Assembly: GCF_001645185.1 (NCBI RefSeq)
Contig: NZ_LXTQ01000040.1
Coordinates: 62,001-126,000, forward strand
Source: Methylobacillus sp. MM3
Lineage (GTDB): Bacteria > Pseudomonadota > Gammaproteobacteria > Burkholderiales > Methylophilaceae
Direction: 5' to 3'
DNA: 64,000 nucleotides
The notes under the pieces were generated by a model. The model saw only the letters and a list, made by a program, of their open reading frames with translations, ran no database searches and had not been told where the DNA came from. Both the position numbers and the translations under genes were made by a program. This document shows positions 51,573 through 61,361 of this stretch, in pieces (the first letter of the stretch is position 1; each line of letters starts with the position of its first letter).

Positions 51573-51689
51573 TTGACGATAACTCTTTTGGTTGAGGGCG
51601 CCTATTTGCAGCCGCGTACCTGGCATCTTGGGTACGCGGGCCTTTGAAACCACAACTAAATATCGAATAAATGGGGGCTGACCCCATTT
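51496..51689. repeat. direct repeat copy A (OYE 3' end, spacer and REP)
   Basis: 194 bp covering the OYE C-terminus, 77 bp of downstream spacer and most of a REP-like palindrome. It recurs at equal length at 53521-53714. The first roughly 103 bp differ at about five positions by eye, and the rest is more diverged. Confidence 0.85.
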
Positions 51690-51692
51690 ATT
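51666..51692. repeat. REP-like element
   Basis: AATAAATGGGG-GCTGA-CCCCATTTATT, perfect 11-bp arms. It lies just after the HD gene stop (51694), where it could also act as terminator for that gene and the convergent OYE gene. Confidence 0.8.
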
Positions 51693-53491: not shown

Positions 53492-53518
53492 AATAAATGG
53501 GGTCTGACCCCATTTATT
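53492..53518. repeat. REP-like element
   Basis: AATAAATGGGG-TCTGA-CCCCATTTATT, perfect 11-bp arms that extend to 13 by TC/GA pairing. It lies three bases after the GlxA stop and directly in front of direct-repeat copy B. Confidence 0.82.
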
Positions 53519-54010: not shown

Positions 54011-54730
54011 TTACTTTTGTTTTGTTCTAAGCACACCTATTTTCTTGCACCATGCTGCGATCGGGCAAATGTCGCATTTAGGCTTTCTCGCATTGCAAAT
54101 CTCTCTACCTAGGGAGACAAAATTTACATGTAACGAGAAGCGGAGTTCGGCAGGGATCTTGGATTGGAGGCGGTCCATATCTCGAGGTGAGCAATGACCG
54201 CCTTTCTGCGTTGGTCGAATCCACCCGAGCCTCCGTGCGATACGCCAACAGTGGGTGTCTACTGGAAAGACATTACGGCCCAGACTGTACATCATTACGC
54301 AGCGGGCGACTTTTCTGCCAACGGTGGGCAACGTGGTGAGGAATCTCTCGATTTCAGCGTCTGACATTTGATGTAAAACTTCTAAAGTCGGGGCCCCGAA
54401 CCGGGTAGCAACAATGCTCAATATCGCTTTTATCGCCTTGGCTTTCGTATTGGATAGCCCTCCGCTAGCGATGGTCGCCGCAATTTCTGGCTCAGTCGCA
54501 TCGAGTAGACATTGCCCACTGGGGAACACGGATTTCAATGCTTGGTAAGAAGCTAGATAGCTCGGTTCTGTGGTTTTCGTGCTACAAACGATGAACATGA
54601 GTTCGTCGAGAGGGTCGTCGAGGTTGTAGTGATCGAAATCGTGATAGCGAGACTTGAGCGCGGCGGCGACCTCGAACACGCTGCGCGGAGCTTTCGTTTT
54701 TGGCGGTGAAGATTTCTTTACTGAAGTCAT
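54011..54730 (-). CDS. EndoIII-family DNA glycosylase (HhH-GPD with Fe-S motif)
   Basis: 239 residues. The HhH-GPD core reads TLPTVGRKVARCVMMYSLGR with the catalytic-lysine position (GRK), then FPVDTHCWRIARRLGW with the conserved aspartate (VDTH). The C-terminal four-cysteine Fe-S loop is intact with the C-x6-C-x2-C-x5-C spacing (CNARKPKCDICPIAAWC). It would remove damaged or mispaired bases, most plausibly T or U opposite G. It is the last gene of the island operon, 34 bp after the nuclease-signature gene. A glycosylase beside a cytosine-C5 methyltransferase fits repair of deaminated 5-methylcytosine, as with MIG.Mth. An ordinary Nth role is the alternative. Confidence 0.88.
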   Translation of the reverse strand: MTSVKKSSPPKTKAPRSVFEVAAALKSRYHDFDHYNLDDPLDELMFIVCSTKTTEPSYLASYQALKSVFPSGQCLLDATEPEIAATIASGGLSNTKAKAIKAILSIVATRFGAPTLEVLHQMSDAEIERFLTTLPTVGRKVARCVMMYSLGRNVFPVDTHCWRIARRLGWIRPTQKGGHCSPRDMDRLQSKIPAELRFSLHVNFVSLGREICNARKPKCDICPIAAWCKKIGVLRTKQK

Positions 54731-54764
54731 GGGCAGGCAAACGTGATGTTTACGCCAGCGTTAA

Positions 54765-55967
54765 TTACAGCTGCAGCCCATGGAGCCTTTTAGGCCACGG
54801 CTGTGCTGGGTCATATATAAGGGCTTGTATACCTAGTTTCGTGAGCACCTCGATGGCGTAACTTTGAATCTCGCGGCACCCTGTTTCGTGAAGAACTAAA
54901 CGAGCTTCTAAGTTCCCATAGTCTTTGATGAGTTCGTTTAGATAACAGGCTAATTGAAAAGCCCCCTTCGCAGCCTGAGCCAGTAAGTTGCCAGCGTTGG
55001 AGCTTTTGATTTCGAACACGTTCAGTTTGCTGCCGGACCTGAACATCAGATCGATAGAGCCGCTTTCATAAGGAACGACACCCTTGGTTAGAAGATAGCT
55101 AGAGATGTCCTTCAACATCGCCTGGTGAACCTTCTCCGCATGTTCCGTTTTGTTGAGCGTTTCTTCCAGGTCACGGAATTTGCTGTCTACGGAGATAAAT
55201 TTCCTCGCATAAATTTTATCTGGGTCGATTTCAGTGAACTCAACGTCTACAGACGGCGCTCTCGAGGGTGCTGCGTGCGCATCTGTTTCGTGGTCTAACG
55301 CCATTTCAGCGAGCATCAAAGAAAGGGGATCTGAAGCTTTTAAGGCCTCGATGGTGTCGGGGCTGAGAGGTGATCCGATTCGCTCGAGGAGTAGAGCGTA
55401 AGCGTAATTCGAATAAGCGCCCAATTTCTCGCCGTTACCTTTCGCCCAAACCTGATTTAAAGTTAGGCCAGATATGACGGCTCGCAGAGCGCTCTGAGCC
55501 ATACGAAGTCTGTTGTGAGGTAGCAGCTGGAGATTGATTTGTGAAAGCGATCTATTGTCTGGCGGGAGTAATTTAGTTTGCACGGAGTTTCTGACGAGTG
55601 CCCTGAGTGAATCAAATGCGGCAACGTCTAGCTCAGATACGCCTAACGACAGCTGGCGTGTCTGGGGCGCTCTGTATTTCGCTGCGCCTGAATAGTCTGT
55701 CGCGAGTCTTAGCGATGCTGTGATCTCTGGCGTAAGCAAATAGTCGCCGGAGTGATAGCCTTCGATTATCTGCTCGATCTTCTTTATTCTTACGACTAGA
55801 AAGAGCCTGTTTTCGGGACCTCGCAGCACGACCCAAAGCCGCCTACCAGCTAGGCTCTTCGGCTCTAAGGTAATTTCATTATTGGGGAGAATGTAGCTGG
55901 CAGAAACTCCTGCGTTCCCGAAGAAAGCGCCTTTATCGCTATTGATAACCCAGGCTAGGTCAAGCAT
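54765..55967 (-). CDS. protein with C-terminal PD-(D/E)XK nuclease signature
   Basis: 400 residues, no family recognised as a whole. The C-terminal part has the nuclease pattern in order: YLLTKGVVPYESGSIDLMFR (acidic residue at SIDL), KLNVFEIKSS (E-x-K), then AAKGAFQLACYLNEL (the trailing Gln helix). The N-terminal 90 residues (RRLWVVLRGPENRLFLVVRIKKIEQIIEG) are beta-rich and look like a small reader-type domain, but this is inference. It overlaps the ATPase gene by 8 bp, so the two are co-translated. The best guess is the cleaving subunit of the island's system. Confidence 0.72.
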   Translation of the reverse strand: MLDLAWVINSDKGAFFGNAGVSASYILPNNEITLEPKSLAGRRLWVVLRGPENRLFLVVRIKKIEQIIEGYHSGDYLLTPEITASLRLATDYSGAAKYRAPQTRQLSLGVSELDVAAFDSLRALVRNSVQTKLLPPDNRSLSQINLQLLPHNRLRMAQSALRAVISGLTLNQVWAKGNGEKLGAYSNYAYALLLERIGSPLSPDTIEALKASDPLSLMLAEMALDHETDAHAAPSRAPSVDVEFTEIDPDKIYARKFISVDSKFRDLEETLNKTEHAEKVHQAMLKDISSYLLTKGVVPYESGSIDLMFRSGSKLNVFEIKSSNAGNLLAQAAKGAFQLACYLNELIKDYGNLEARLVLHETGCREIQSYAIEVLTKLGIQALIYDPAQPWPKRLHGLQL

Positions 55968-57642
55968 GAGGGGCTAGTTCTGCTAACGCGTCATCGAGAG
56001 ACGTTGGCCAAGGGATATGGTCGCCCAGCAAATCGTGTTGGCGAACTTCTTTCCCTCTTAACCTAACCACCTCAGTTTCTTCCACTGTGTCTTTGCAGAT
56101 TAAAAGGTAATAGTTGACCTCTGCCGCAACCTGCCCTCGTCTATGAATCCTATCTAACGACTGTAGGTAGTGCGCTGCTTGGTTAGAATAGGACAAATAC
56201 ACGGCATCGTAAGAGGCGTGCAATGTTATACCGGCGCCGGCGGCTGCAGGATTGCCGATAAACAGCATTGTTCCAGGGTTTTCTTGGAAAGATAGAACTG
56301 CTTCTCGTCTGTCCGACGAGAGGACGGACCCATCAACTCTGACCGGGTTAAAGCGCGTGTATCGATTCGCGATTTCGTCCAAACTTTTTTTATAAAAAGA
56401 CCAGACGATGACTTTCCTTCCTTGAGAAATCAAGTCCCCAAGGAGTTTGTCGAGTACAGCATATTTCGCTGGAGTGTCTGAGAAAGTCGGGTCAATAGCG
56501 CTAGGACAAGCACATATCTGCATCAGCGCAGCTCTCCGCTGAAAATACGTCGCCAGACTTTTCTTAAAAGTCTCGTTGTTCAGATGTTTAAGTTCTAATT
56601 CCAATTCGGTGCGCGCCTTGTCGTACATCAAGGCTTGTTTACCACTCAGCTCGATCCTGAGAACGTGGAAGTTTTTCTCGGGTACATGCTGCAGAATTTC
56701 TGGTTTAAGCCGGCGAATGAAAACGCCTTTCGTGTCCACTAAAGACGCAATTTTGTCCCAATCGTCCGCCGGGTCCTTAGATTTTTTAAATCCACCAAAG
56801 GTGAACCCGAGGTCCGCCAAATCGAACTGGTTGACAAGGTCGTGCGCGGAGTTCGGCGCAGGAGTACCACATAGGACGAAGCACCGTTGGCATTTCGCTC
56901 TTAATTTTCCAACAGTTTCAGAGCGAAATGATTCGCCATTCTTTAAGTAGTACGATTCGTCGACGACAAGTAGGTAGCGGCTAGAAGATGCACTCCCTAC
57001 CAGAGAGCTTAACATCGTCTCAACGCTTTCGTAGTTCGACACGAGAACATCGAAGTCACGTAGCGCAGCTTCGTACTTCTGCCGACGGTTGCCTTCTGCC
57101 GTTGCGACTCTGCACTCAGACCCGAGGAACCGAGCGATGTCTTTCGGCCATTCGCTAACCATACTTTTAGGACACACAACGATCATCGCATCGATTTCGG
57201 AGAGCTTTCTGAGCTCGTCGAACGCGGCGATGGTCATCACGGTTTTGCCACTACCCTGCTCGTCGAACAAGCAAAGTCCCAAGAGCCCGGGAAGCTTCAT
57301 CGCTGCGACAGCAGAGGCCTGCGCAGGCTCTAGAATGTTATTCCAGTCGCCAGATAAAGAGGAGTGCTCGTTGCTCTCGATGATGTTTAGCGCTTTTGCT
57401 CTAGCTGCCTCATGTCCGTTGAATTTAGCCAGAGTGTCCGCAGTTAGTTCATCGAGCTCGCCTTGCCCAAGAAGGTCTGAAACAGCGGAAAGAGAAGGTA
57501 AAGGGAAAGAGACGAAATCTTTTCCTGATTTAACACGAGAACCGATACGTTGAGAGAGCTGGGCCTTAAGCTTTAGAAGCTGGATCCCCGAACACTCGAC
57601 ATAGACGCTCTCATCTGCGACCCTAACTTTCATAATCGTCAC
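55960..57642 (-). CDS. SNF2-type ATPase/helicase of the island
   Basis: 560 residues. Superfamily 2 SNF2 motifs: Walker A DEQGSGKTVMTIAAFDEL near residue 127, motif Ia VVCPKSMVSEWP, a Walker B of unusual form LLVVDESYYLKN (DESY instead of DEAH/DEGH), motif III LCGTPAPNS, motif V GNPAAAGAGITLHAS and motif VI QSLDRIHRRGQ. It would use ATP to translocate or remodel DNA. The GTG at 57642 overlaps the ParB-like gene's stop (GTGA); an ATG nine bases on is the alternative. The C-terminus overlaps the nuclease-signature gene. Confidence 0.88.
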   Translation of the reverse strand: MTIMKVRVADESVYVECSGIQLLKLKAQLSQRIGSRVKSGKDFVSFPLPSLSAVSDLLGQGELDELTADTLAKFNGHEAARAKALNIIESNEHSSLSGDWNNILEPAQASAVAAMKLPGLLGLCLFDEQGSGKTVMTIAAFDELRKLSEIDAMIVVCPKSMVSEWPKDIARFLGSECRVATAEGNRRQKYEAALRDFDVLVSNYESVETMLSSLVGSASSSRYLLVVDESYYLKNGESFRSETVGKLRAKCQRCFVLCGTPAPNSAHDLVNQFDLADLGFTFGGFKKSKDPADDWDKIASLVDTKGVFIRRLKPEILQHVPEKNFHVLRIELSGKQALMYDKARTELELELKHLNNETFKKSLATYFQRRAALMQICACPSAIDPTFSDTPAKYAVLDKLLGDLISQGRKVIVWSFYKKSLDEIANRYTRFNPVRVDGSVLSSDRREAVLSFQENPGTMLFIGNPAAAGAGITLHASYDAVYLSYSNQAAHYLQSLDRIHRRGQVAAEVNYYLLICKDTVEETEVVRLRGKEVRQHDLLGDHIPWPTSLDDALAELAPHA

Positions 57643-58760
57643 TCTGACGCAGCTTTGCTCAATCTAATGACAAGTTCCAGCGCTGACTCAAGGTTATTAC
57701 GAGAGTTGACGGGAATCTGTTTGATATCTGCGGCAGTCATTCCGTGTAGAAATTTCACGAACGTGTCGATTCTACCCACCGCTTCGTCCGCACTTTTCAC
57801 AACTCTAGCGTTATAGTCGAGAATGGCTTTGGCAGACTTCGCGGCCGCAGGGTCGATTTGTAACAGCGCGGCTTTGGCTTCGGGATGTTGCCACGCCTTG
57901 TATGCGACTCTGACTTCCGGAAAGCTCGAAAACTTTGATTCGTATATCCATCTAAAGAATTGAATTTTGAAGTCGATATCTGTCTTGAGCGGCTCGAAGA
58001 ACGATTTTTGGGCTTCGTTGAAGTACTGATAATTTTTCGCCGCTATCGTTTCTGCTTCTTGTTCCGATAAACCTAGACCACCGCCAAATTCATCACTCAT
58101 GTCACGCGGGGTTGACGCGAACATTATGAACTCGGTGATTATTTCGTGGATCCTTAAGGTTTCCTTAATTTTCGATCTGGCCCAACTGAACTTTTTGGAA
58201 ATCTCTTCGGGCTTGAAGCCGTCTTCATGAGCTTCAACCACTTTCACGGCTTTCACGTAATCGGGCCACTCGATCTTAAGCGAAGCGGAGAAGTTTTCTT
58301 CTACGAGAACGTTCTGTTCATCTTCAGCGGTAGCTACTTCTGACAATACGTGAACATCGATGGATTCGAGGTCCTGACGGTTAGGGTCAGTCGATGGCAT
58401 GTTCTCCAGCGCGTACTTTACGGCGAAGAATCTACGGTTCCCGTCTAAGAGCTTACCTTTGAACGACAAAGTCAGTGGTTCACGCAAGCCGTTTTTTAAA
58501 ATGTCATCGCGAAGTTCTTTTAATTTGACCTCCGGGTCGTTTTTCATTAAATCGAATATTTCGTCTTGAGTGAGCTCTCTGTCGCCGACTTTGGATAGAA
58601 ATTTCTTTTTCTCAAGTTCGATTCTGGGGTTATCTACCCAGCCTTGAATCGATGAAACTTTAATTTTCCCTTCCCAAACAATGATCTTTCTCCCGTTGTA
58701 AAGCCTTTGTTTGACTTGAGGTTTGGGGGTGTTTAACAGAAACGGTGGCTGGGTTGTCAT
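57639..58760 (-). CDS. ParB/Srx-like protein with DGNRR motif
   Basis: 373 residues. The ParB/sulfiredoxin-fold N-terminal domain (WVDNPRIELEKKKF...LRDDILKNGLREPLTLSFKGKLLDGNRRFFAVKYAL) places GLREP and LDGNRR where ParB-like nucleotide-handling domains keep GxxxP and DG(N/Q)RR. A helix-turn-helix-like stretch follows (FKPEEISKKFSWARSKIKETLRIHEII), and the C-terminal half is helical. In defence islands, DGQ/NRR-type ParB-like domains are seen in several nuclease or nucleotide-hydrolysing effectors. Here it lies between the unknown protein and the ATPase. Function inferred only as a component. Confidence 0.78.
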   Translation of the reverse strand: MTTQPPFLLNTPKPQVKQRLYNGRKIIVWEGKIKVSSIQGWVDNPRIELEKKKFLSKVGDRELTQDEIFDLMKNDPEVKLKELRDDILKNGLREPLTLSFKGKLLDGNRRFFAVKYALENMPSTDPNRQDLESIDVHVLSEVATAEDEQNVLVEENFSASLKIEWPDYVKAVKVVEAHEDGFKPEEISKKFSWARSKIKETLRIHEIITEFIMFASTPRDMSDEFGGGLGLSEQEAETIAAKNYQYFNEAQKSFFEPLKTDIDFKIQFFRWIYESKFSSFPEVRVAYKAWQHPEAKAALLQIDPAAAKSAKAILDYNARVVKSADEAVGRIDTFVKFLHGMTAADIKQIPVNSRNNLESALELVIRLSKAASE

Positions 58761-58778
58761 TGTTAATTAGTTCCAATC

Positions 58779-59612
58779 TTATTTAACGGTCGCCTCTAGT
58801 GCATTCAACTTACATTCTAGATAGAGAATACGCTTGATGAGGTCTGCTTTCTTCATTTGATCGTAGCATTTAGCGGGCGCCGGTTTTTCCTTGTAACAAC
58901 TTGCGAAAGGAGAATGATTGTCGACGAACGGTGTATTTATATGTCGGGCCAAAAGTTTTTCTTTCTCTATTCTCGACACCCAGAAGTTCGCCATGTCCGC
59001 GGTGAAGCGTTTGTACAATTGCTTGCTTAGGGCCGGAATTAGCCCTCCAGCGGTCTCTTCAAAAGAACAGTCTCGGCATATAAAAACGGCTAAGTCCAAA
59101 GCGGCAGTCGAGCTCTTCGTCTCCGCGAGGAGTACAAGGAAATTCGACATCCAGTCCTCGTGGTAGCTAATACCCCATTTCATTCCGGTTGCTGTTGGTC
59201 CCATTTTAAGCACGGGTGCAGCGGGTCTACGGGGATAAAAGTAGCTCTCGATCTGGCCTGATGCTTTTTTTAATGGCACCGTTAGGAAATTGGAGGAAAT
59301 TCTTTTCTCTGGATTCTTTTCTCCGCCAGTGATTTTACCTAGCTCGATAACCTGTTTGAGGCCTTCTGGGGTATTCGCAACTAAAACTAGCCGGGTGAAT
59401 TCAAGCTCGATTTGCTTTCGAAAATTTTTACCATTGAAAGTATCTGGGTTGAGATCCAAGCTACTAACGGTGAAGTGCTTGCACGCGGCATCGAATGATA
59501 AGAAATACATTAATACCGATGTCCGTTCCAAGTGAGTTTTCCCCGTCTGGTTCCGGGAAGAAAGCCTTTCGAAGCAGTCACAGACAAACTCGGGACGAAG
59601 GTAATTCGACAT
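58779..59612 (-). CDS. unrecognised island protein
   Basis: 277 residues starting MSNYLRPEFVCDCFERLSSR, five bases after the methyltransferase stop (an in-frame ATG at 59681 lies inside the methyltransferase gene). No family recognised. Visible features are a conserved-looking FDAACKHFTVSSLDLNPDTFNGKNFRKQIELEFTR stretch, a basic/proline patch SYFYPRRPAAP, TGMKWGISYHEDWMSNFLVLLAE and FICRDCSFEE, and a C-terminal coiled region (QMKKADLIKRILYLECKLNALEATVK). In a type II-style arrangement, this position beside the methyltransferase is where the restriction endonuclease usually sits. That is inference from position only. Confidence 0.62.
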   Translation of the reverse strand: MSNYLRPEFVCDCFERLSSRNQTGKTHLERTSVLMYFLSFDAACKHFTVSSLDLNPDTFNGKNFRKQIELEFTRLVLVANTPEGLKQVIELGKITGGEKNPEKRISSNFLTVPLKKASGQIESYFYPRRPAAPVLKMGPTATGMKWGISYHEDWMSNFLVLLAETKSSTAALDLAVFICRDCSFEETAGGLIPALSKQLYKRFTADMANFWVSRIEKEKLLARHINTPFVDNHSPFASCYKEKPAPAKCYDQMKKADLIKRILYLECKLNALEATVK

Positions 59613-59616
59613 TGTT

Positions 59617-61044
59617 TTACTCTCGCTTTTTCTTAGTTCTTGAAATCGATTTCTCATCAGAAAAGATAATGTCTCTGTCACGAGCGCGTAGTGGCTTTCC
59701 AGAGCTTACGAACTGCTCGAAAGACATGTATTCGGATTCACCCCTCAAGTTGTGACCCGTTAGTACGGCCTTGATCTGTGTGGCGATTTCATAAGCTAGG
59801 CGCGGCGGTACCGCGTTGCCGATTTGTTGGTATTTCGTTTTTACAGTTTTTCCTTCAAAAACGAACCAGTCAGGAAACGTTTGGATACGAGCAACTTCTC
59901 TCACCGAGAATATACGCTTCTCTGTAGGGTGCCAGACACCTGCGTTCTCTGGTTTAAAAGCTGCGGTGATCGTGCCCGCGATTTCGTCGCGGTGGAATCT
60001 TCGATAAAAATTTGGCCATCGATAGCGCTCTATGTTGTCCCACACTCTCTTGAGGCGCTCAGGAAGTTTCTCATACGGAATATCCTTCCACGAGCCGCCT
60101 TCAGGGACCATGCTACCAATATGTAGGGCCTGGGGGTTCAACTGCATGAGCTCATTTTGGTTTGGAACGCTAGTGCTCAGGTCCAAAACAGTATGCTTGA
60201 GACTAAGATCCTGTCTATCTATCGGATGCGGGAACGAAAAAGTCCCAGAAGTTTGAGACCTATCGACGCCAACGATTAGAACTCGCAACCTTTTTTGAGG
60301 TACATGGTGACGAGATGCATCAATTAGGCTGAAGACAACGTTGTAACCTAAAGCGTTAAGCTCTTCGCATATCTCCTGGATCAATAGCTTCTCGCCGTTC
60401 TTGAACGAGAGTAACCCACGGACGTTTTCGAAAACCACACACTTTGGCTTCAGATCGCGAACGAAAGCTAAGGCAGTTTGATATAGGGTTCCTCTGCCAT
60501 CCTCAAGCCCACGCCTAGAGCCGGCGTTCGAGAAAGGTTGGCAAGGAAACCCCGCGGTTAGAACGTCTGGACGATCGCCTAACTTAGGCGGGGGGATTTC
60601 TCTAATGTCTTGATCGTAAATCTCACCGATGTTTCGACGATACGTCATGCACGCATCTGCGTTGATGTCGTTTGCAAATACTGTTTTGAAGCCTGCTTGG
60701 TGAAAGCCTAAATCAAACCCACCGCAACCCGAAAAAAGGCTGACGTGAGTTAACTTACCACCGGCGTTAACCGATGATGGCCGAGTGAAAATTTCCCACG
60801 GGCGCACTGCGGCCACTTCAGAGGCCGGTGATTGAACGATCGCGTTCAGGGCTGAAGAAAGCAAATCTTGTATTGTCGTTTGTTTTTCACCGGCGAGCTG
60901 TTTGATTTTGCCGTGCGTTTCTTTATTAACCTCGACGGTGATTGTTTTGATTTCTAAGCGCTTTCTTCTGGCAGCTTGAGAGGCTCTTATTTTTTCGGTA
61001 CGGCTCGGCGCACCAACCGTTTTTTTTTCTGATGCTACTTTCAT
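59617..61044 (-). CDS. cytosine-C5 DNA methyltransferase with N-terminal ribbon-helix-helix-like segment
   Basis: 475 residues. Residues about 1-75 include KTITVEVNKETHGKIKQLAG followed by EKQTTIQDLLSSALNAIVQS, which looks like a ribbon-helix-helix DNA-binding domain. The rest is a complete C5 methyltransferase: motif I LFSGCGGFDLGFHQAG, motif IV GFPCQPFSNAG with the catalytic Cys, motif VI ENVRG, motif VIII QKRLRVLIVG, a short target-recognition region, and motif X QIGNAVPPRLAYEIA. It makes 5-methylcytosine in an unknown short site. The ATG at 61044 was chosen because the frame upstream would run through the palindrome. First gene of the operon, with the operator-like dyads just in front. 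Confidence 0.93.
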   Translation of the reverse strand: MKVASEKKTVGAPSRTEKIRASQAARRKRLEIKTITVEVNKETHGKIKQLAGEKQTTIQDLLSSALNAIVQSPASEVAAVRPWEIFTRPSSVNAGGKLTHVSLFSGCGGFDLGFHQAGFKTVFANDINADACMTYRRNIGEIYDQDIREIPPPKLGDRPDVLTAGFPCQPFSNAGSRRGLEDGRGTLYQTALAFVRDLKPKCVVFENVRGLLSFKNGEKLLIQEICEELNALGYNVVFSLIDASRHHVPQKRLRVLIVGVDRSQTSGTFSFPHPIDRQDLSLKHTVLDLSTSVPNQNELMQLNPQALHIGSMVPEGGSWKDIPYEKLPERLKRVWDNIERYRWPNFYRRFHRDEIAGTITAAFKPENAGVWHPTEKRIFSVREVARIQTFPDWFVFEGKTVKTKYQQIGNAVPPRLAYEIATQIKAVLTGHNLRGESEYMSFEQFVSSGKPLRARDRDIIFSDEKSISRTKKKRE

Positions 61045-61054
61045 CGAGATTCTC

Positions 61055-61110
61055 ACGCCTAGTTTGAGGCGTAAATTAACGTTTTTCTGTTTACATGTAA
61101 ACAGAAAAAC
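61055..61110. promoter_or_regulatory. two dyads in front of the methyltransferase
   Basis: ACGCCT-N6-AGGCGT at 61055-61072 is followed by a perfect 30-bp palindrome at 61081-61110, whose half is GTTTTTCTGTTTACA. They lie 11 and 37 bp upstream of the methyltransferase ATG at 61044, at the promoter and leader of the minus-strand operon. The palindrome is a strong candidate autoregulatory site for the ribbon-helix-helix-like segment of the methyltransferase. Symmetry is observed; binding is inferred. Confidence 0.7.
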
Positions 61111-61361
61111 TATCAAAAAAGACCAGGTATTTTCTCCGATCAATTAAAGCGTATGAATTTACTGCAGATATTAATTGAAAGCGTCATAGCATATTGCTTC
61201 GTGGAGAAGGATCTGAGAATGAAGCTATGTAGCTGTTGCAGTAGAAGGTCGGTTAGAATTTTCAAGAAGAAAAATATCGCCCTGATCTCTTGGCGCTGAA
61301 AATCATAAATAAAAAAGCCATCATGATGATAATGGCTAAATTATTATGCAATTAACCTACC
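61111..61361. other. intergenic region with a hairpin, no gene seen
   Basis: About 250 bp upstream of the island promoter. AGCCAT (61316-61321) and ATGGCT (61332-61337) form a small hairpin preceded by A6, terminator-like for either side. No gene recognised. Base composition changes from A+T-rich to normal across this stretch, marking the island's right edge. Confidence 0.45.

Follow-up and report, generated by a model that had tools for sequence, protein, structure and literature searches.

A C5 cytosine methyltransferase with a predicted N-terminal ribbon-helix-helix domain and a candidate operator palindrome at its predicted promoter

Does the dcm gene in the 64,000-nucleotide stretch of Methylobacillus sp. 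MM3 DNA analysed here (the window) repress its own transcription through a ribbon-helix-helix (RHH) domain fused to the methyltransferase that it encodes? An initial annotation had proposed as much from an RHH-like N-terminus and a perfect palindrome upstream of the start codon. The answer depends on what the N-terminus is, on whether the palindrome is a plausible operator, and on which protein would bind it. The gene and its parts are as follows.

59617-61044, minus strand: dcm, 475 aa, first gene of its operon; start at ATG 61044 (probable)
60952-61044, minus strand: basic N-terminal tail, dcm residues 1-31, as in ParG-like proteins (alignment)
60832-60951, minus strand: predicted RHH domain, dcm residues 32-71 (strand KTITVEV, helix 41-54, helix 58-71), from profile matches; the single-sequence structure model disagrees
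59755-60756, minus strand: C5 cytosine methyltransferase domain, dcm residues 97-430 (PF00145, 5.6e-77; TIGR00675, 1.1e-67)

The PF00145 domain, together with PCQ and ENV motifs, identifies the product as a C5 cytosine DNA methyltransferase. The open frame containing the gene spans 59617-61143 on the minus strand, with its upstream end at TTG 61143. A start at this codon, with the frame crossing the palindrome, is unlikely, because the relative L001 has the same leader, GTGAGAATCT, followed by the same MKV..EK start at its ATG.

Curated libraries yielded no helix-turn-helix (HTH) match in the dcm N-terminus and returned RHH families instead. Specifically, the first 97 residues matched PF20605 (Antitox_RHH) at 2.4e-4, although the score of 21.6 bits is below the Pfam cut-off of 27.2, and two PHROG families of Arc-like repressors at 2e-4 and 0.016. 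The N-terminal core also matched the ORF56 RHH family (0.0096), and its sole sequence match in the PDB was ParG, in register, with an E of 0.93. Among the weak tblastn neighbours on plasmids are RHH proteins; four of these adjoin a ParA-type gene and belong to PF20605. An HMM of these ParA-partner proteins gave the dcm N-terminus 36.8 bits versus at most 13.6 in 5000 shuffles, and hhalign against their profile gave 95.3% (E 2.3e-8), figures that are somewhat favourable because the four proteins were chosen by their likeness to the query, a bias from which the library searches are free. Homology to RHH proteins, closest to the ParA-partner (ParG-like) ones, is thus supported for residues ~32-71; the earlier suggestion of an RHH-like segment holds over strand, helix and helix, with these limits fitting better than the residues 20-75 first proposed. 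One residue counts against a DNA-binding reading: the ribbon position expected from the alignment to face DNA is a glutamate, E38. Two open frames of 317 and 407 aa, considered as RHH-methyltransferase fusions in a survey of PF20605, showed no sign of fusion.

Structure prediction, proposed in the initial annotation as a check, gave a divided result. From the single sequence, AlphaFold returned one long helix (residues 15-71) at high pLDDT, which is not RHH, whereas a five-row alignment produced helices 41-54 and 58-71 in RHH register, with an extended stretch ahead of them. That alignment had RHH relatives built in (three viral RHH proteins, alongside L001), and the PDB matches of the resulting model, mostly RHH (CopG, ORF56, Arc and NikA), all had E above 0.5, which makes for weak support from AlphaFold. 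Single-sequence models of lone RHH chains, which miss the partner strand, may be unreliable, and the RHH assignment rests on sequence rather than on these models. If the long helix were taken at face value, the N-terminus could be a basic linker, mostly helical or disordered, with a superficial RHH match, and the palindrome would be unrelated to it; the aligned N-terminus of L001, which is not RHH, points in the same direction. We consider this very unlikely, given that the profile evidence is far above shuffles and that several libraries indicate one fold.

An RHH repressor would need a site, and the region upstream of dcm contains the following elements.

61081-61110, no strand: perfect 30-bp palindrome GTTTTTCTGTTTACATGTAAACAGAAAAAC, candidate operator; beyond chance, core unique, overlapping the predicted -35 box
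61096-61101, minus strand: predicted -35 box TTTACA, within the palindrome; best sigma-70 weight-matrix score upstream of dcm
61073-61078, minus strand: predicted -10 box TAATTT, just downstream of the palindrome (weight-matrix scan)
61055-61072, no strand: second dyad ACGCCT-N6-AGGCGT, where transcription is expected to start; close to chance level
61316-61337, minus strand: good terminator-like hairpin separating the dcm promoter from the upstream gene

The palindrome was confirmed as perfect, with 15-bp arms (GTTTTTCTGTTTACA and TGTAAACAGAAAAAC) matching at 100% around a zero spacer; its distance to the dcm ATG, previously given as 37 bp, was counted as 36 bp. A first-order Markov model of the window predicts 0.025 gapless palindromes per 64 kb when each arm spans 12 or more, and 40 simulations produced none with arms of at least 13. 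The 16-bp core has no other copy at up to two mismatches in the 2.96 Mb host genome, on which ground it was rejected as a host regulon site, and the exact 18-bp core is absent from the viral contigs searched. Comparison of the promoter region with plasmids and phages returned short AT-rich matches, those on Arsenophonus plasmids lying within a capsid gene, and these were taken as chance. The second dyad is present as first described, at a level near chance (P ~0.06), and it carries little weight because shuffling the 36-bp leader yields a dyad like it ~6% of the time. Elsewhere in the window, a near-identical pair of 27-bp palindromes, AATAAATGGGG[T/G]CTGACCCCATTTATT, occurs at 51666-51692 and 53492-53518, the only two copies in the genome.

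The predicted -35 and -10 boxes are separated by a 17-bp spacer in the weight-matrix scan; a strict-consensus sigma-70 scan upstream of dcm found no site. Since the predicted -35 box lies inside the palindrome, a repressor bound there would exclude RNA polymerase. A terminator scan also lists the palindrome on the minus strand, as might be expected of an RNA terminator for the upstream gene, but the stem has no loop and only 3 G-C pairs, it is directly followed by an A-run and not a T-run, and the better terminator at 61316-61337 stands between it and that gene. This reading is scarcely credible and was rejected on the wrong tail and the better hairpin.

Downstream of dcm, five further genes complete the operon.

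58779-59612, minus strand: P0006, 277 aa, similar to an McrB-like (LlaJI-type) subunit (N-terminal half of the latter); separated from dcm by 4 bp
57639-58760, minus strand: P0005, ParB-like protein (PHROG ParB-like, 4.5e-5; Spo0J, 0.023)
55960-57642, minus strand: P0004, SNF2-type helicase/translocase (PF00176, 5e-28)
54765-55967, minus strand: P0003, probable PD-(D/E)XK nuclease (IDLMF...LNVFEIKS, motif by eye; weak Cas4 match there)
54011-54730, minus strand: P0002, HhH-GPD DNA glycosylase, last gene (PF00730, 6e-11; NF053634, 4e-28)

The six genes (54011-61044) all point the same way and are spaced by -8 to +34 bp, and one promoter therefore probably serves them all. PADLOC did not match the operon as one system, no ParA/ParF-type ATPase is encoded among its genes, and its G+C is 48% compared with 56% for the part of the window that precedes it. 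The operon looks like an undescribed restriction-type system, in which the P0002 glycosylase may repair T:G mismatches left by deaminated 5-methylcytosine.

Relatives of the operon provide a comparison of N-terminus and palindrome. Five of its genes (dcm, P0006, ParB-like, SNF2 and nuclease) recur in L001, a gammaproteobacterial MAG whose operon is without the HhH-GPD glycosylase, and in two viral contigs, L010 and L011; dcm is 72% identical overall in L001 (83% in the core, per the tree) and 58-59% identical in L010 and L011. The initial annotation had held that loss of the palindrome from relatives keeping the operon would refute its proposal, and the palindrome is indeed absent upstream of dcm in 3/3 of them. 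The same three have no recognisable RHH domain. The L001 N-terminus can be aligned at 35% with few gaps, is lysine/proline-rich with prolines in both helices, and has no RHH score; those of L010 and L011 are short and unrelated. We do not count the missing palindrome against the RHH link, because RHH was lost or never present in these loci. With the window as the one positive case, the co-absence is suggestive only. No close relative with both RHH and palindrome was found, the window being the single such locus, so co-conservation of the two cannot be shown in its lineage. With P0005 as query, no further operon copy appeared in ~800 genomes of the order and phylum, and none of the plasmid or phage records contained P0005; the only close dcm relatives in ~850 genomes of the family, class and phylum were those in G147 and G022. 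The viral copies of the five-gene operon lie at L010:6851-13041 and L011:6899-13054, that of L010 sitting between terminase-like and portal-like genes (by eye). The operon may travel with phages.

These relatives also bear on a different candidate ligand. The ParB-like P0005, which has an HTH-like stretch, could bind the palindrome in place of the methyltransferase, with the palindrome serving as a parS-like site: the core, TGTTTACATGTAAACA, and parS, TGTTTCACGTGAAACA, have TGTTT......AAACA in common and agree at 10/16 positions. However, L001 has P0005 at 83% identity and L010/L011 have it at ~61%, yet no such site exists at those loci, and the joint absence of RHH and palindrome from loci that retain the ParB-like protein argues against the latter as ligand. 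In addition, the central CACGTG of parS is missing from the palindrome, and host parS-like sites are located elsewhere in the genome, on which ground the palindrome was rejected as host parS. Overall, we regard binding by P0005 as quite unlikely.

A second comparison concerns what other dcm loci hold at the position of the RHH domain. In the sister locus L016, from the host's own family, dcm is 58% identical and a separate RHH_9 gene (5.8e-9) lies ~24 bp upstream, itself preceded at 26-44 bp by the inverted repeat GTGTATC-N5-GATACAC; the locus, L016:7667-11863, is LlaJI-like and includes McrB- and McrC-like genes. A Cro/C1 HTH is fused to dcm in L030 and L050, and a separate Cro/C1-type HTH gene occupies the regulator position in L002 and L005, while L031 has neither a separate nor a fused HTH regulator. 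In L028, the RHH protein adjoining dcm is of NikA type. By comparison with these loci, the window fills the regulator position with a fused RHH domain. The NikA-type neighbour in L028 would also suit a different role, in which the RHH domain is real and serves to dimerise the methyltransferase or to target it to DNA or a partner, with the palindrome being the site of an unlinked host regulator; ParG- and NikA-type RHH domains also act in partition and mobilisation. We think this unlikely, since the unique core leaves no evident host regulon and the corresponding position in related dcm loci is taken by genes or domains of regulator type.

Returning to autorepression by the fused domain, N-terminal extensions that read as RHH were also found on viral C5 methyltransferases. 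A survey of 80 methyltransferase loci from viral contigs revealed them in L069, L100, L109, L091 and L125, and a second scan covered 30 relatives of L109 (L126 = L109); the phage fusions comprise L069, L100, L126-L132, L135, L143, L091 and L125. We name them only RHH-like, because their Pfam matches are weak and sub-threshold (RHH_7, 0.026; RHH_1, 0.03) and hhalign to RHH profiles is likewise weak. PDB matches of the GAGR-type profile to the designed Pizza protein were discarded as repeat artefacts. The inverted repeat TTGATTT-N11-AAATCAA (at most two mismatches) occurs in 8/11 loci with a GAGR-type extension versus ~1/21 without, a count that overstates independence because most positives form one clade, with L069 outside it. 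The Fisher p of 3.6e-5 was computed on a tally of 8/10 versus 1/22, in which L100, its repeat a one-base variant, was misfiled. The repeat sits 71-77 bp before the start (chance per region, 0.7%), and in most positive GAGR-type loci a -35/-10 pair spans its right half, with TTGCAA-17-TATAAT in several. The phage fusions thus resemble the window in carrying an RHH-like N-terminus on a C5 methyltransferase, most of the GAGR type with an inverted repeat over the -35. They differ in belonging to a distant methyltransferase clade, with a separate origin and another N-terminal type and operator sequence; placement of the two in different clades of the tree indicates at least two separate changes. 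The comparative pattern, namely the separate RHH gene of L016 and the conserved repeats over the -35 in RHH-like fusions, fits autorepression.

Autorepression of dcm through its fused RHH domain appears to be the best explanation of this locus, and we consider it likely. The methyltransferase would be bifunctional, its basic tail and ParG-like RHH domain (residues ~32-71) forming a dimer that would bind the 30-bp palindrome over the -35 of the operon's only evident promoter and block RNA polymerase. Accumulating methyltransferase would lower transcription of dcm and of the co-transcribed, probably restriction-related genes; with these putative restriction genes placed behind dcm in one operon, methylase and restriction parts would fall together under repression. 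Such feedback would give the system a low set point; upon entering a naive cell, the operon would switch on in a burst and then settle as protein builds up.

By 2013, six C5 methyltransferases had been shown to act as regulators (PMC3695355); the autoregulatory enzymes closest to dcm are M.SsoII, M.Ecl18kI, M.EcoRII, M.MspI, M.ScrFIA and M1.LlaJI. In M.SsoII and M.Ecl18kI, the N-terminal ~70 residues bind an inverted repeat at the promoter and compete with RNA polymerase (PMC3695355, PMC3978073). The N-terminal region of autoregulatory C5 methyltransferases is described as helix-turn-helix, C-protein-like or 434-repressor-like (PMC3695355, PMC3978073, PMC3874152), and a review describes methyltransferase autorepression only via helix-turn-helix N-termini (PMC3874152). 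Within the open-licence literature, we found no paper placing RHH in this role. The window dcm resembles SsoII/Ecl18kI in its inverted repeat overlapping the (predicted) methyltransferase promoter and in the proposed autoregulation by the N-terminus of a C5 methyltransferase. It differs in that the N-terminal domain is predicted to be RHH and not helix-turn-helix, for which reason we did not place it in the SsoII-like group. Furthermore, the restriction gene of SsoII/Ecl18kI is divergent from the methyltransferase (PMC3695355, PMC3874152), whereas all genes of the window operon are co-directional; with the putative restriction genes behind dcm, this gene order means that an SsoII-type switch is not possible.

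With ParG and the ParA-partner RHH proteins (PF20605), its closest sequence relatives, the dcm N-terminus has in common a basic tail and an RHH core. Plasmid partition proteins are the usual setting of this type of domain, and ParG, a stand-alone partition protein, represses its own operon; in the window, by contrast, the RHH domain is fused to a methyltransferase, in an operon without parA. Omega and PaaR, dedicated RHH repressors of addiction-type toxin-antitoxin loci (PMC3874152), are likewise RHH proteins but small and encoded on their own, with no enzyme attached. Operons of the LlaJI-type (McrBC-like) restriction-modification kind house related methyltransferases (L016, L030), and P0006 resembles part of their McrB-like subunit; in the window, ParB-like, SNF2 and PD-(D/E)XK-like genes take the place of the GTPase and McrC.

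RHH autoregulation, as the best explanation, would be a known kind of methyltransferase feedback carried out with a different DNA-binding fold. For the wider family, we see roughly even chances that HTH and RHH modules, separate or fused, have independently filled an exchangeable regulatory position of restriction-type C5 methyltransferases, with at least two RHH or RHH-like fusions, one of them derived from ParG-like plasmid-partition proteins (the window), each having its own operator at the -35. Methyltransferase level must stay balanced against restriction activity. If our reading is true, the RHH version, with its phage parallels and their conserved candidate operators, would mean that unrelated DNA-binding folds have served to rebuild one feedback loop, and dcm would represent a compact, testable natural autoregulator.
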